From the IMG/VR virus record IMGVR_UViG_3300032116_018332, positions 1 to 41,235 of that record: a stretch of DNA of 41,235 nucleotides. One strand, written 5' to 3'. The first letter of the stretch is position 1, and each line of letters opens with the position of its first letter. The translations under genes were made by a program, and so were the position numbers. This document shows positions 4,766 to 33,210 of the stretch, piece after piece. Source of the DNA: a virus. The notes under the pieces are model-generated. The model made no database searches. It worked only from the letters and a program-made list of their open reading frames with translations, and had not been told where the DNA came from.

Positions 4766-4795
4766 TGAGTTAGCAAAATCTAAATTAAAATTAGG

Positions 4796-4824
4796 TTGAC
4801 CAAATTAATGTTTGATAGTATAAT
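4796..4824 (+). promoter_or_regulatory. sigma70-type promoter for the phosphoesterase gene
   Basis: TTGACC (4796-4801), a 17-nt spacer and a perfect TATAAT (4819-4824). The ATG at 4850 follows, with AAGGAGAG as ribosome site. It is divergent from the late promoter at 4759-4765. Confidence 0.8.
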
Positions 4825-4849
4825 AATAGAAATAAAAAAGGAGAGCATT

Positions 4850-5449
4850 ATGCCTGCTGTGTTTTTAGTAAGCGACACGCATTTTGGACACGCTGGTGTG
4901 TGCCGATTTTTGCGTGAAGATGGAAGCAAACTTCGTCCTTGGGATGATCCTAGCGAAATGGACGAGGCTATGATCAAGCGATGGAACGAACGTGTTCGCC
5001 CAAACGACAAAGTTTATCACTTAGGTGATGTAGTGATTAATCGTAAAGCATTATCTACGTTATCTCGCTTAAACGGAGACAAAGTGTTAATCCGTGGTAA
5101 CCACGATATCTTTAGGGATGACGAGTATAGAATGTACTTTCGTGAATTACGTGCATACCACGTTATGAACGGAATGATCTTAAGTCATATTCCAGTACAC
5201 GAAGCAAGTTTAGGTCGGTTTGGTGTCAACATTCACGGACACTTACACGCAGGTCGTGTTAAAAAAGCACGTGGTATAAATGCTAAAACGGGAGAAGTTT
5301 TATACAGTGACGAAATTGATACTCGTTATCATTGCGTATGTGTAGAACAAACCGACTACACACCTATCTTGTTTGAAGACGTTATCAAGCGTATTGAAGA
5401 AGAAGGTGGGACCGTTGGATTTAAAAACGGCAACGGTCCTACTATGTAA
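4850..5449 (+). CDS. calcineurin-like metallophosphoesterase
   Basis: A 199-residue protein with the full metallophosphoesterase motif set: D9-x-H11 (SDTHFGH), G59-D60, G83-N84-H85-D86, a later histidine at H113, and G130-H131-x-H133. These bind two metal ions and hydrolyse phosphate esters or diesters. Phage members are often compared with lambda phosphatase or cyclic-nucleotide phosphodiesterases; the substrate here is unknown. ATG 4850 is chosen over an upstream in-frame ATG that overlaps the promoter -10, because AAGGAG lies at optimal spacing. It heads a sigma70-driven pair with the small gene at 5460. Confidence 0.9.
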   Translation: MPAVFLVSDTHFGHAGVCRFLREDGSKLRPWDDPSEMDEAMIKRWNERVRPNDKVYHLGDVVINRKALSTLSRLNGDKVLIRGNHDIFRDDEYRMYFRELRAYHVMNGMILSHIPVHEASLGRFGVNIHGHLHAGRVKKARGINAKTGEVLYSDEIDTRYHCVCVEQTDYTPILFEDVIKRIEEEGGTVGFKNGNGPTM

Positions 5450-6901: not shown

Positions 6902-7153
6902 ATGGCTGGCAAAGGTTCTAGACCTAGGCCTTATAGCATAAGTCAAAATCAGTTTGCTAGCAACTGGGATAATATTTTTAATAAAGGTAAAACAATGCAA
7001 GTAAGAGTTCAAGAAAAAATTGGTACGTGTGGCTGTGGTCGTAGCCCAACAGGTAATTGTATTGGTTGGCACGGTCTTAGCGAATCGGAGTATCAAGCAA
7101 AATTAGCTTCGTATATTGCAGAACAAGATAAAGGAACAACAAATGCAGGTTAA
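6902..7153 (+). CDS. mini-protein fused to a CDGSH-like Cys/His motif
   Basis: 83 residues in two parts. Residues 1-31 carry [12 protein letters not shown] followed by FASNWDNIF, a mini-protein type I recall from T4-like marine phages. Residues 43-57 carry C43-x-C45-x2-S48-x4-C53-x-G-x-H57, close to the CDGSH iron-sulphur signature (C-x-C-x2-S-x3-P-x-C-D-G-x-H) but one residue shorter and with Ile for Asp. Bound metal is therefore an inference. An internal ATG at 6995 has AAAGG 8 nt upstream, so the second part may also be made alone. It overlaps the next gene by 11 nt. Confidence 0.6.
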
Positions 7154-7412
7154 AGCCAGTCATATTTTAGTACCAACGCTCACAGAAGCACAAGCATTAC
7201 ACAACAAAATTTCAGCAGGCGAAGACTTTGCTGAATTAGCAAGAAACAGTAGCAGTTGTCCCAGTGGCCGCAATGGCGGTGACCTAGGAATGTTTGGTCG
7301 TGGACAAATGGTTAAACCATTTGAAGATGCCGCTTTTGGTCTTGATGTTGGTGGCCTCAGCGAGCCAGTCCAGACACAGTTTGGTTTTCACGTAATCAAA
7401 CGTACTGCGTAA
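7143..7412 (+). CDS. parvulin-type peptidyl-prolyl isomerase (PpiC-like)
   Basis: An 89-residue, single-domain parvulin, close in size to E. coli PpiC. Family landmarks are ASHILV near the N-terminus, [39 protein letters not shown], and FGFHVIK at the end. It catalyses cis-trans isomerisation of prolyl bonds and probably acts in the cytoplasm because there is no signal peptide. ATG 7143 with AAGGA upstream is preferred over the ATG at 7116, which lies inside the preceding gene. Parvulins are rare phage cargo. With ClpP and the metalloprotease it suggests control of protein folding and turnover. tRNA-Thr begins 6 nt later. Confidence 0.9.
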
Positions 7413-7418
7413 GAAATT

Positions 7419-7492
7419 GCCCTTTTAGTTAAATGGTATAACAGTTGATTTGTAATCATCAATTGGTGGTTCGATTCCATCAAGGGGCACCA
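7419..7492 (+). tRNA. tRNA-Thr(TGT)
   Basis: The acceptor GCCCTTT pairs with AAGGGGC, discriminator A, encoded CCA. The anticodon loop TTTGTAA gives anticodon TGT, matching bacterial tRNA-Thr; the stem GTTGA/TCATC has one mismatch. The T-arm is GGTGG/CCATC. Confidence 0.88.
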
Positions 7493-7764
7493 AGAACCTC
7501 GTAGGCCCATCTACGTTATAAATGGGGGTCTGTTGGCTTAACCAGAACGCCAAGGCTCATGCGATGTGCCTCAGAACCCGCTATATGGGTGCAAGAAAAA
7601 TCGTAGGTGGGTTCTACACCTTACCAGAAGTAAATGTAGCGGACAGAGTAACAGCTCAGTCTAGGGCTAGTGAGGACTAGTGGCTAGGCACTTTTATAGA
7701 ACACATTCGGTTGGCTCATAGCCAACAGAGACATAAGAAACGTGAGTGTGTTTTATCAAAGTAT
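7493..7764 (+). ncRNA. candidate structured RNA between tRNA-Thr and tRNA-Gly
   Basis: A 272-nt interval with no credible protein, about 46% G+C by hand count in an AT-rich genome. Visible pairings: AGAACC at the start with GGTTCT (about 7611-7616); a CGTAG/CTACG hairpin whose GCCCAT loop can pair with ATGGGT near 7586; TTGGC/GCCAA; GTGCCT (near 7566) with AGGCAC (near 7686); a 7-bp hairpin GTTGGCT/AGCCAAC near 7720; and a terminal 12-bp stem ATAGAACACATT with AGTGTGTTTTAT that closes the 3' part. The loop-loop and long-range matches suggest a compact tertiary fold. It begins one base after one tRNA and ends one base before the next. I could not match it to RNase P RNA, tmRNA or a group I intron. 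Confidence 0.65.
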
Positions 7765-7838
7765 GCGGGGTTAGTTTAATGGTAAAACTACAGATTTCCA
7801 ATCTGTTGTTGAGAGTTCGATTCTCTCACTCCGCTCCA
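7765..7838 (+). tRNA. tRNA-Gly(TCC)
   Basis: The acceptor GCGGGGT pairs with ACTCCGC, discriminator T, encoded CCA. The anticodon stem ACAGA/TCTGT carries loop TTTCCAA, anticodon TCC (reads GGA). Confidence 0.94.
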
Positions 7839-7845
7839 GACATTT

Positions 7846-7923
7846 CGGAGTGTGGCGCAGTCTGGCTAGCGCACCTGGTTTGGGACCAGGGGGTCCAAGG
7901 TTCGAATCCTTGTACTCCGACCA
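7846..7923 (+). tRNA. tRNA-Pro(TGG)
   Basis: The acceptor CGGAGTG pairs with TACTCCG, discriminator A, encoded CCA. The anticodon stem CCTGG/CCAGG carries loop TTTGGGA, anticodon TGG (reads CCA). Confidence 0.95.
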
Positions 7924-8117
7924 AGACGTTCTGTCTAATCAGCAGATACTGTGACCCGCAGGATGAGAAGTGGTGTGATAGCCAAGGGTGGTACCACTCC
8001 TACCGAAGTGGCGCTGGCAATGCGAGAACGGAACCCGTCGGGGAGTGGGTGGAGGCCATGGGTACGCAAGTAACTATGGTATAATTACCACCGGGGTTCG
8101 CAGAGCACTTAATTCAT
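7924..8117 (+). ncRNA. candidate structured RNA between tRNA-Pro and tRNA-Cys
   Basis: A 194-nt interval, about 54% G+C by hand count, the most GC-rich stretch seen in this AT-rich window. It can form AGTGGT...ACCACT, GGTATAATTACC, ACGGAACCCGT and other short stems, and it is purine/GC-rich in single-strand-like segments (GGGGAGTGGGTGGAGGCC). It exactly fills the gap between two tRNAs, so tRNA maturation would release it. Open frames across it are accidental because they also run through the tRNAs on either side. No known RNA family was recognised by eye. It shares no obvious sequence with the other two intervals. Confidence 0.6.
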
Positions 8118-8210: not shown

Positions 8211-8282
8211 GCGGAAGGGTGAAACGGTTTACACGCTGGTCTCATAAGCCAGAAACATCAGGTTCGATTCCTGTTTTCCGCA
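8211..8282 (+). tRNA. tRNA with anticodon CAT (elongator Met or Ile2)
   Basis: The acceptor GCGGAAG pairs with TTTCCGC and the anticodon stem CTGGT/GCCAG carries loop CTCATAA, anticodon CAT. The paired G1-C72 argues against an initiator tRNA. One extra A precedes the CCA (CAACCA), so CCA is not directly encoded in place. Met and lysidine-modified Ile2 cannot be separated by eye. Confidence 0.85.
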
Positions 8283-9049: not shown

Positions 9050-9616
9050 ATGAGAAACTTAATTTTAACTTTAGACAGCAGCGGATTACCTCATGATTGG
9101 ACTACTTGGCAAGATGCCGTTACATTGAAGTGTAAGGGATCTATCGCCTGGGAATTTGGTGATGAAGAATTCGTTTTCAGAGGCGGTACTAACCGTATGA
9201 CTGGGCTACCTTCTGAAGTTAGTATCAGTTCGATTATAGCTCTCAAATCTAAATTTTCTAACCGAAATCGAACACCGGCATTTAACAATCGAAACCTTTT
9301 TAGAAGAGATCTAGGCGTATGTGCTTACTGTGGCGTAACACACAAAGAAATTGATCTTACCAAAGATCATATTCAACCACAAAGCAGAGGCGGAGTTACT
9401 AACTGGATGAACTGCGTTACTGCATGTAAACGCTGTAACAACAAAAAGGACGATAGAACTCCTGAAGAAGCAAATATGTTACTAAAGTATGTGCCGTATA
9501 TTCCAGATCGAGCAGAAGGATTAATACTGCGTAATAGAAACATACTTGTAGATCAAATGGAGTTTTTGAAAAACTTTTTACCCAAGCACAGTAGAATGTT
9601 ATCAATGTTTAACTAA
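9050..9616 (+). CDS. HNH endonuclease
   Basis: A 188-residue protein with a C-terminal HNH nuclease domain: CAYCG (first zinc knuckle), TKDHIQPQSRGG with the catalytic DH pair, N for the central position, and AC-x2-C-NNKK closing the zinc site. The N-terminal 75 residues are a separate beta-rich part (WDLTTW-like strand and FRGGTNR). Ribosome site AGAGAG precedes the ATG. It sits at the junction between the tRNA array and the accessory island, a common place for homing-type HNH genes, so it may have helped mobilise either. It is not nested in an intron. Confidence 0.9.
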   Translation: MRNLILTLDSSGLPHDWTTWQDAVTLKCKGSIAWEFGDEEFVFRGGTNRMTGLPSEVSISSIIALKSKFSNRNRTPAFNNRNLFRRDLGVCAYCGVTHKEIDLTKDHIQPQSRGGVTNWMNCVTACKRCNNKKDDRTPEEANMLLKYVPYIPDRAEGLILRNRNILVDQMEFLKNFLPKHSRMLSMFN

Positions 9617-32271: not shown

Positions 32272-32616
32272 TTGTGCCTTGGGTTTACGACCTCGGGACG
32301 TTTTGACTTTTTCAGTAACTGCCTTTGTTACTTCTTTGGCTTTCTTTGTAGTTTTCTTTACTGCTTCTTTAGCATCTTCTAGATTTACTTTTCCGTCTCC
32401 GTTTACATCTAATACATTAGAAATAACAGGTTGAACAGGTACACTTTCGTGTCCAATTCCGTCTGCTTTAGTTGTTTTAGAGGGAGTTTCAATCTTGTAA
32501 GGTGCTTGCGTAGCAGCATCTAGTGGGTGCTTACCATCTGAACTTTCTTTGTTTAGCATATGGTACCCAACATAAACGATAATAGCCAAAGCTATAATAG
32601 CGATAATGATTTCCAT
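32269..32616 (-). CDS. membrane-anchored EF-hand-like protein
   Basis: A 115-residue protein with an N-terminal membrane segment (MEIIIAIIALAIIVYVGYHML), a low-complexity linker, a single calcium-binding loop DVNGDGKVNLED (about 69-80; D, N, D, G, V, N and D at EF-hand positions), and a Lys-rich tail. The loop fits the dockerin/EF-hand consensus. It would sit in the inner membrane, with the side of the tail uncertain. CTAAGGAG precedes the ATG and a TAAATA box lies upstream. Confidence 0.75.
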   Translation of the reverse strand: MEIIIAIIALAIIVYVGYHMLNKESSDGKHPLDAATQAPYKIETPSKTTKADGIGHESVPVQPVISNVLDVNGDGKVNLEDAKEAVKKTTKKAKEVTKAVTEKVKTSRGRKPKAQ

Positions 32617-32635
32617 AAAAATCTCCTTAGGAAAA

Positions 32636-32651
32636 TATTTAGTTATAAATA
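32636..32651. promoter_or_regulatory. divergent late promoters
   Basis: On the minus strand CTAAATA (32642-32636) serves the EF-hand gene. On the plus strand TATAAATA (32644-32651) is a full consensus match followed by TTCC and ATG 32656, leaving 4 nt before the superoxide dismutase start. Confidence 0.65.
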
Positions 32652-32655
32652 TTCC

Positions 32656-33210
32656 ATGACATACAATTTTATCAAATGGGCACTTGTAGAAAGTACAAAT
32701 GAACCAAAAACACTAGAACTCTATGATTTACCCTACAGCCGTACTGATCTAGACCCGTCAATTAGTAAAGAAACACTAGATGTACACTACGGTAAATTAG
32801 CCAAAGGATATGTAGACCGTTATAATGCAGGAGAAGGAGACCCCGATTTTAACGAAGCGGGCGCCTATTTGCACAATATTTTATTTGCACAATACAAAAA
32901 ACCAGAAAGCAGTAATAGTCCAACTGGTGCAATTTTAGAATTTATTGAAAAACATTTTAAAAGCTTTAATAACTTTGTAGAAAAATTTGAAGTTGAAGCT
33001 ATGAAGCTACAAGGATCAAATTGGATTTACTTAGCTAAGAACGGCAAAATTAAAAGCATACCGAACCATCAAACACGTAGTGATATTGTACTGTTAATTG
33101 ATTGGTGGGAACATGCTTGGTTCTTGGATTACGGTAGCGACAAGAAAAAATATCTAGCTAATCAATGGAAAATTATTAACTGGGAAATTGTTTCCGCTAG
33201 AGTTCACTGA
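32656..33210 (+). CDS. Fe/Mn superoxide dismutase
   Basis: A 184-residue SodA/SodB-family protein. Metal ligands are present: H44 (DVHYGK), H73 (YLHNILF), D149 and H153 (IDWWEHAW). Tyr52 matches the active-site tyrosine. The gateway histidine of E. coli SodB (H30) is Leu48, and the second-sphere region reads PNHQ (H138) where Mn-type have Gln, so metal preference is not predictable. It converts superoxide to O2 and H2O2. ATG 32656 with a 4-nt gap to the late box is preferred over longer frames that run through the promoter region. Confidence 0.9.
   Translation: MTYNFIKWALVESTNEPKTLELYDLPYSRTDLDPSISKETLDVHYGKLAKGYVDRYNAGEGDPDFNEAGAYLHNILFAQYKKPESSNSPTGAILEFIEKHFKSFNNFVEKFEVEAMKLQGSNWIYLAKNGKIKSIPNHQTRSDIVLLIDWWEHAWFLDYGSDKKKYLANQWKIINWEIVSARVH

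Follow-up and report, generated by a model that had tools for sequence, protein, structure and literature searches.

A structured RNA of four tandem pseudoknots in the tRNA arrays of uncultured phages

Large structured RNA classes are few in phages, and two of them, GOLLD and ROOL, form RNA-only cages of unknown purpose. Pseudoknots in series are found in one-piece tmRNA, which carries up to four of them in tandem, and at the 3′ ends of plant RNA viruses, where consecutive H-type pseudoknots adjoin a tRNA-like element. GOLLD is a structured phage noncoding RNA of unknown function, often longer than 800 nt and often located near tRNA islands, which combines a conserved 3′ part with a variable 5′ part and has reportedly been recovered together with ribosomes in pull-downs (PMC12286853). 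ROOL, a phage and prophage RNA of likewise unknown function, is also often found near tRNA islands and contains pseudoknots within a multi-stem fold, P1-P19 (PMC12286853). Two-piece tmRNA has already been described in aquatic phages (PMC9004378).

The window, by which we mean the whole stretch of 41,235 bases that was analysed, is a virus record that encodes phage genes such as those for a tail fibre and a DNA ligase. A preliminary description had proposed that an undescribed structured RNA exactly fills the gap of 272 nt (7493-7764) between its tRNA-Thr(TGT) and tRNA-Gly(TCC) genes, and the tRNA borders placed by ARAGORN at 7492 and 7765 agree with that position (Table 1). The G+C content of the interval is 46.3% as against 37.0% for the whole window, in line with the earlier estimate of about 46% on an AT-rich background. 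The statement that the interval has no plausible protein also holds, as no conserved open reading frame is found in it, the stop-free runs vary among the relatives and the lengths of these populate all three classes modulo 3 (41/41/31). An RNA fold, a cmscan search against Rfam and a search for covariation among viral-metagenome homologues had been suggested as checks. In the first, the interval was compared with 200 dinucleotide shuffles and folds more stably than every one of them (z = -3.65). In the second, none of the 4227 families of Rfam 15 matched the interval up to E = 5, at the gathering score or below it; the adjoining tRNAs are the only matches above chance around it, and ten relatives searched up to E = 0.5 gave no credible match at the core. 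Elsewhere in the window, tRNAs at 829-899 and 8211-8282 score above the Rfam gathering cut-off and were missed by ARAGORN. Near the tRNA genes there are also an aspartyl/asparaginyl beta-hydroxylase-like protein (2087-2869), a stand-alone PpiC-type isomerase (7143-7412) and an HNH endonuclease (9050-9616), and a phage-borne Fe/Mn superoxide dismutase is encoded at 32560-33210.

Table 1 Coordinates of the structured RNA, its elements and the adjoining tRNA genes in the window.
Feature	Position	Strand	Details
tRNA-Thr(TGT), upstream neighbour	7419-7492	+	ARAGORN, Rfam
Whole inter-tRNA structured RNA	7493-7764	+	core 7493-7692 and 3′ extension 7691-7764
Pseudoknot 1	7500-7526	+	S1 7500-7504/7511-7515 (CGTAG/CTACG); S2 7506-7510/7522-7526 (CCCAT/ATGGG)
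Pseudoknot 2	7527-7553	+	S1 7527-7529/7541-7543 (GGU/ACC); S2 7533-7537/7549-7553 (UUGGC/GCCAA)
Pseudoknot 3	7554-7605	+	S1 7554-7556/7568-7570 (GGC/GCC); S2 7560-7565/7600-7605 (UGCGAU/AUCGUA)
Hairpin P4	7576-7579/7587-7590	+	in the long loop of pseudoknot 3
Pseudoknot 4	7606-7639	+	S1 7606-7611/7620-7625; S2 7614-7618/7635-7639 (CUACA/UGUAG)
Joint GGACAGAGUAACAGCUCAG and small hairpin P5	7641-7658	+	joint within about 7641-7659; P5 7646-7648/7655-7657
3′ hairpin P6	7659-7689	+	outer 7659-7664/7684-7689; inner 7667-7671/7676-7680
Optional 3′ extension	7691-7761	+	P7 7691-7709/7743-7761 (18/19 pairs); inner hairpin 7710-7716/7720-7726
tRNA-Gly(TCC), downstream neighbour	7765-7838	+	ARAGORN, Rfam

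The first relative, L002, repeats the gene order of the window, with a PpiC-like gene followed by tRNA-Thr(TGT), the RNA and a tRNA-Gly, the last of which has a GCC anticodon instead of TCC. A pattern of 20 bases taken from the shared 3′ region matched 40 IMG/VR contigs and a looser one 96, four of these being false matches in coding regions; two further patterns, drawn from the central part of the RNA, matched 10 and 100 contigs. An nhmmer profile run on the retrieved DNA gave 178 matches on 173 contigs, 162 of them full length, and in total full-length relatives are present on about 160 IMG/VR contigs, with 113 distinct members below 96% identity. All members are metagenomic. Recovery by conserved patterns biases the apparent conservation of the bait itself, which was checked with independent patterns. 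Two exact patterns had zero matches in 84,980 bacterial and archaeal genomes (species), and a blastn comparison of GenBank phages with the interval and with four of its relatives returned nothing meaningful and no cultured relative. No report of the RNA was found in a literature search outside bioRxiv and most subscription journals. A covariance model of the core, R1, scores 7493-7692 at 161.8 bits (E = 2.2e-45) with the window among its 57 training rows, and members outside the training set score up to 181 bits. R1 also reveals diverged second copies in several contigs. Such subfamilies or second copies, which share mainly the 3′ module, are seen in L046, L067 (261-456), L069, L086, L087, L106 (8043-8240), L157 (4548-4747), L117 (5107-5332) and L113 (9416-9615), and some lie next to a normal copy carried by the same phage.

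The fold was derived from a MAFFT alignment of 57 members built without structure, in which column pairs were ranked by mutual information with background correction. The highest-ranking pairs are canonical, reach z values of up to 17.8 and are each represented by several pair types, and read jointly with a descriptor scan they define four H-type pseudoknots in a row, a fold that the preliminary description had missed; folding of single sequences likewise misses most of the pseudoknots. In the core of about 200 nt, the four H-type pseudoknots occupy 7500-7639 in tandem and are followed by a small hairpin and, at 7659-7689, by a 3′ hairpin of two parts. Over all classes of the 57 members the helices are 85.6% paired with 351 two-sided cells, as against 34.6-46.6% and 29-109 in controls with slid partners, and the alignment is imperfect near S2 of pseudoknot 3 and near pseudoknot 4, which lowers the counts there. 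The contrast is maintained in the 43 class-C members (88.7% paired and 269 two-sided cells; slid 36.4-45.9% and 18-77) and in the nine window-like members (97.6% of cells paired and 16 two-sided pairs; slid 31-47% and 0-1). Some helices are invariant within a class, namely S2 of pseudoknot 3 in class C and S1 of both pseudoknots 2 and 3 in the window class, and their support arises between the classes.

Pseudoknot 1 contains the top covarying column pairs, and in close relatives both sides change in three pairs of S1 and two pairs of S2. The true partner of CCCAT is ATGGG at 7522-7526, with compensatory changes. The GCCCAT:ATGGGT pairing proposed earlier is fully paired in two of the nine close relatives and a second earlier pairing, GTGCCT:AGGCAC, in the window alone; neither is conserved, and both were rejected. 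In pseudoknot 2, S1 changes from GC to CG in 20/57 members, while S2 is 96% paired with both sides changed in two pairs among the 43 class-C relatives. S1 of pseudoknot 3 is 100% paired, with UA replaced by CG in 12/57, and the first pair of its S2 undergoes the same replacement in 20/57; the pseudoknot is also supported by the descriptor scan. Pseudoknot 4 shows two-sided changes in both the window-like and the class-C sets and has a descriptor score of 19.4 as against 11.1 for shuffled sequence, where the control consisted of simple and not dinucleotide shuffles. The joint GGACAGAGUAACAGCUCAG served as bait, so that its invariance is partly due to ascertainment, and it varies in relatives retrieved with another pattern; in 43 relatives from an independent pattern, the GGACAGAGUAACAGCUCAG region with P5 shows an AU to GC change in 8/43. 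Finally, P6 is 98.7-100% paired across the 57 members, and a single position shows as many as five pair types. Four tandem H-type pseudoknots with P5 and P6, supported by covariation, are the features by which we propose to define the family, and all are found here. The presence of a structured RNA in the tRNA-Thr/tRNA-Gly gap is thus confirmed: its relatives covary strongly on structure-free alignments, and it has neither an Rfam family nor a conserved protein. That 7493-7764 is a structured RNA maintained by selection is practically certain.

Downstream of P6 the RNA is less uniform. A P7-type helix follows P6 in 86 of 122 members, a score equalled by shuffled flanks in 8 of 366 trials, and cores that lack P7 often run directly into a tRNA. 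The extension of the window itself has no relative among the loci retrieved, and a few relatives of extensions were found elsewhere in tRNA arrays. The optional extension contains a T-loop-like sequence in 14 members, the window not being one of them. By eye, such sequences sit on an acceptor-like stem and resemble a tRNA-like domain; in L006, L010, L018, L030 and L032 a T-arm with the loop TTCGAYT and a varying stem is combined with the acceptor-like stem, a long helix and what appears by eye to be a further pseudoknot. Similar elements now and then stand free between tRNAs, e.g. at 3183-3304 in L015. Pairwise identity of pseudoknot 1 shows no correlation with that of pseudoknot 3 (r = 0.01) or with that of the 3′ module (r = 0.06); the identities of pseudoknots 2 and 3, in contrast, move together (0.72). 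The RNA is therefore a mosaic of exchangeable modules that are shuffled between phages. The modules recombine and the sequence inside each pseudoknot varies freely, so that no obvious active site or ligand pocket is conserved across the whole RNA.

The genomic surroundings of the RNA are highly consistent. Around 130 distinct members, all 1687 nearby tRNAs lie on the strand of the RNA and none on the opposite one, and a tRNA is present within 500 nt on either side in 117 of the members. An upstream tRNA ends within 15 nt in 53/130 and a downstream one lies within 250 nt in 107/130; the commonest neighbours are, as in the window, tRNA-Thr(TGT) upstream (26 cases within 30 nt) and tRNA-Gly(TCC) downstream (48 cases within 250 nt), with tRNA-Met(CAT) also common on the downstream side. 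In 49 members no tRNA occurs within 500 nt upstream, with the flanking DNA present, and some members begin directly after a stop codon. The later part of the array is favoured, with 7.9 tRNAs within 3 kb upstream and 4.2 downstream. Twelve contigs of 166-358 kb carry one or two copies each. Among 18 large contigs with the RNA, 12 have a permuted tmRNA elsewhere, and five have GOLLD above the cut-off at another place; in L010, GOLLD (7549-8012) and the four-pseudoknot RNA (4792-4993) share a single tRNA array. Examples of the permuted, two-piece type of tmRNA are found at 13-295 in L007 and 14398-14621 in L027.

The preliminary description was unable to place the RNA in either GOLLD or ROOL, and the comparison supports keeping it apart from both. 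With GOLLD (RF02032) it has in common that it is a structured phage RNA in or near tRNA arrays; however, GOLLD is larger and has another fold, its covariance model has no match over the new core, and the phages that carry both RNAs keep them in separate places. ROOL is likewise a pseudoknot-containing phage RNA near tRNA islands, but no Rfam 15 match links it to the new core, which is about 200 nt long and built of four tandem pseudoknots in contrast to the multi-stem fold of ROOL. Both the one-piece and the permuted tmRNA (RF04321) are similarly rich in pseudoknots and the permuted form often occurs in the same phages, whereas the core lacks a tmRNA model match, a tag reading frame and tRNA-like ends. 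The upstream pseudoknot domains at the 3′ ends of plant RNA viruses, compared by description, are alike in their tandem H-type pseudoknots and belong to unrelated genomes. The core also has no match to the self-cleaving ribozyme models known to Rfam, and a resemblance by eye to group I introns and RNase P was dropped as Rfam gave no match. By these model tests the RNA is not GOLLD, ROOL, tmRNA or a catalogued ribozyme, and it is best read as a new family with a new architecture within the broad kind of structured RNAs of phage tRNA arrays.

The position of the RNA suggests how it might be produced. It would be transcribed within the tRNA array, and from what is known of tRNA biology, it would be set free when RNase P matures the 5′ end of the tRNA that follows and a 3′ tRNA nuclease trims the one that precedes, after which the compact RNA may act in trans during infection. 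Such release would not be universal, as follows from the 49 members that have no tRNA within 500 nt upstream and those that start behind a stop codon. The lack of an obvious conserved site spanning the RNA also counts against this reading. By analogy with GOLLD and ROOL, the likeliest role would be that of a structural or binding RNA tied to the takeover of translation. We assign a probability of roughly 60% to an uncatalogued family of phage noncoding RNAs that is transcribed with the array, released and acts in trans. Translation would be the likeliest arena because of the company of tRNAs, tmRNA and GOLLD, and a specific role at the ribosome or in translation, for which the same analogy speaks, is a doubtful proposition.

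The main rival to a trans-acting RNA is a cis-acting element of the array that protects or spaces the precursor or aids its transcription or processing, for instance as an antiterminator or a stability block. The constant location within the array, on the strand of the tRNAs, speaks for it, and a place in the 3′ half would suit protection of the 3′ part. Nevertheless, the single or double copy per large contig despite many tRNA gaps speaks against a general spacer, in some members one flank or the other is free of tRNAs over 500 nt, and the late position is ill-suited to a 5′ leader antiterminator, a role that is disfavoured for this reason; a cis role as a whole is judged unlikely. A spacer without function or the remnant of a mobile element, with stems formed by chance, could be reconciled with the mosaic modules, the optional 3′ hairpin and the few relatives elsewhere in arrays, but the strong covariation in 57 sequences refutes this for the core and the architecture is constant in well over 100 members, which makes it the least credible of the alternatives.

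Two further explanations would assign the fold to a known kind of activity. A self-cleaving ribozyme that helps to cut the array would agree with the compact pseudoknotted fold and with the conserved joint that links pseudoknot 4 to the 3′ hairpin; however, the invariance of the joint is in part that of a bait and the joint varies in relatives found otherwise, and with no catalogued Rfam ribozyme family matched, this is considered very improbable. Descent from tmRNA, as a fragment or derivative, is suggested by the four tandem pseudoknots and by the T-arm-like hairpin on an acceptor-like stem in some 3′ extensions. The core, on the other hand, has no T-arm, acceptor or conserved reading frame and is not matched by a tmRNA covariance model, and the separate permuted tmRNA in 12 of the 18 large contigs already weakens such an origin, which appears marginally less probable still than a ribozyme; an identity of the core with tmRNA was rejected on the same grounds.

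A second undescribed structured RNA is located at 7924-8117 of the window, where it fills the gap between tRNA-Pro and tRNA-Cys. It has no match in Rfam or among GenBank phages, and a pattern derived from it matches at least 119 IMG/VR contigs; 73 distinct full-length relatives covary with z up to 23, many pairs being 100% canonical. The four-pseudoknot RNA is also present in 35 of 107 further loci that were retrieved through this second RNA.

The four-pseudoknot family is widespread in large uncultured phages, and its fold is defined well enough to be drawn and mutated. Tentatively, it may represent a new modular class of phage RNA, in which a released chain of exchangeable pseudoknots, attached to a 3′ hairpin module that stays constant and in some cases to a tRNA-like domain, would serve large aquatic phages, together with the tRNAs, tmRNA and GOLLD that they encode, in taking over or protecting translation. 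If this is true, then together with the RNA at 7924-8117 it would make the tRNA arrays of large phages a hidden home of several new RNA classes. The mining of inter-tRNA gaps with exact patterns can expose RNAs that are absent from the current catalogues. Since the pseudoknots predict exact compensatory mutants, the question of why tRNA arrays hold structured RNAs becomes testable.
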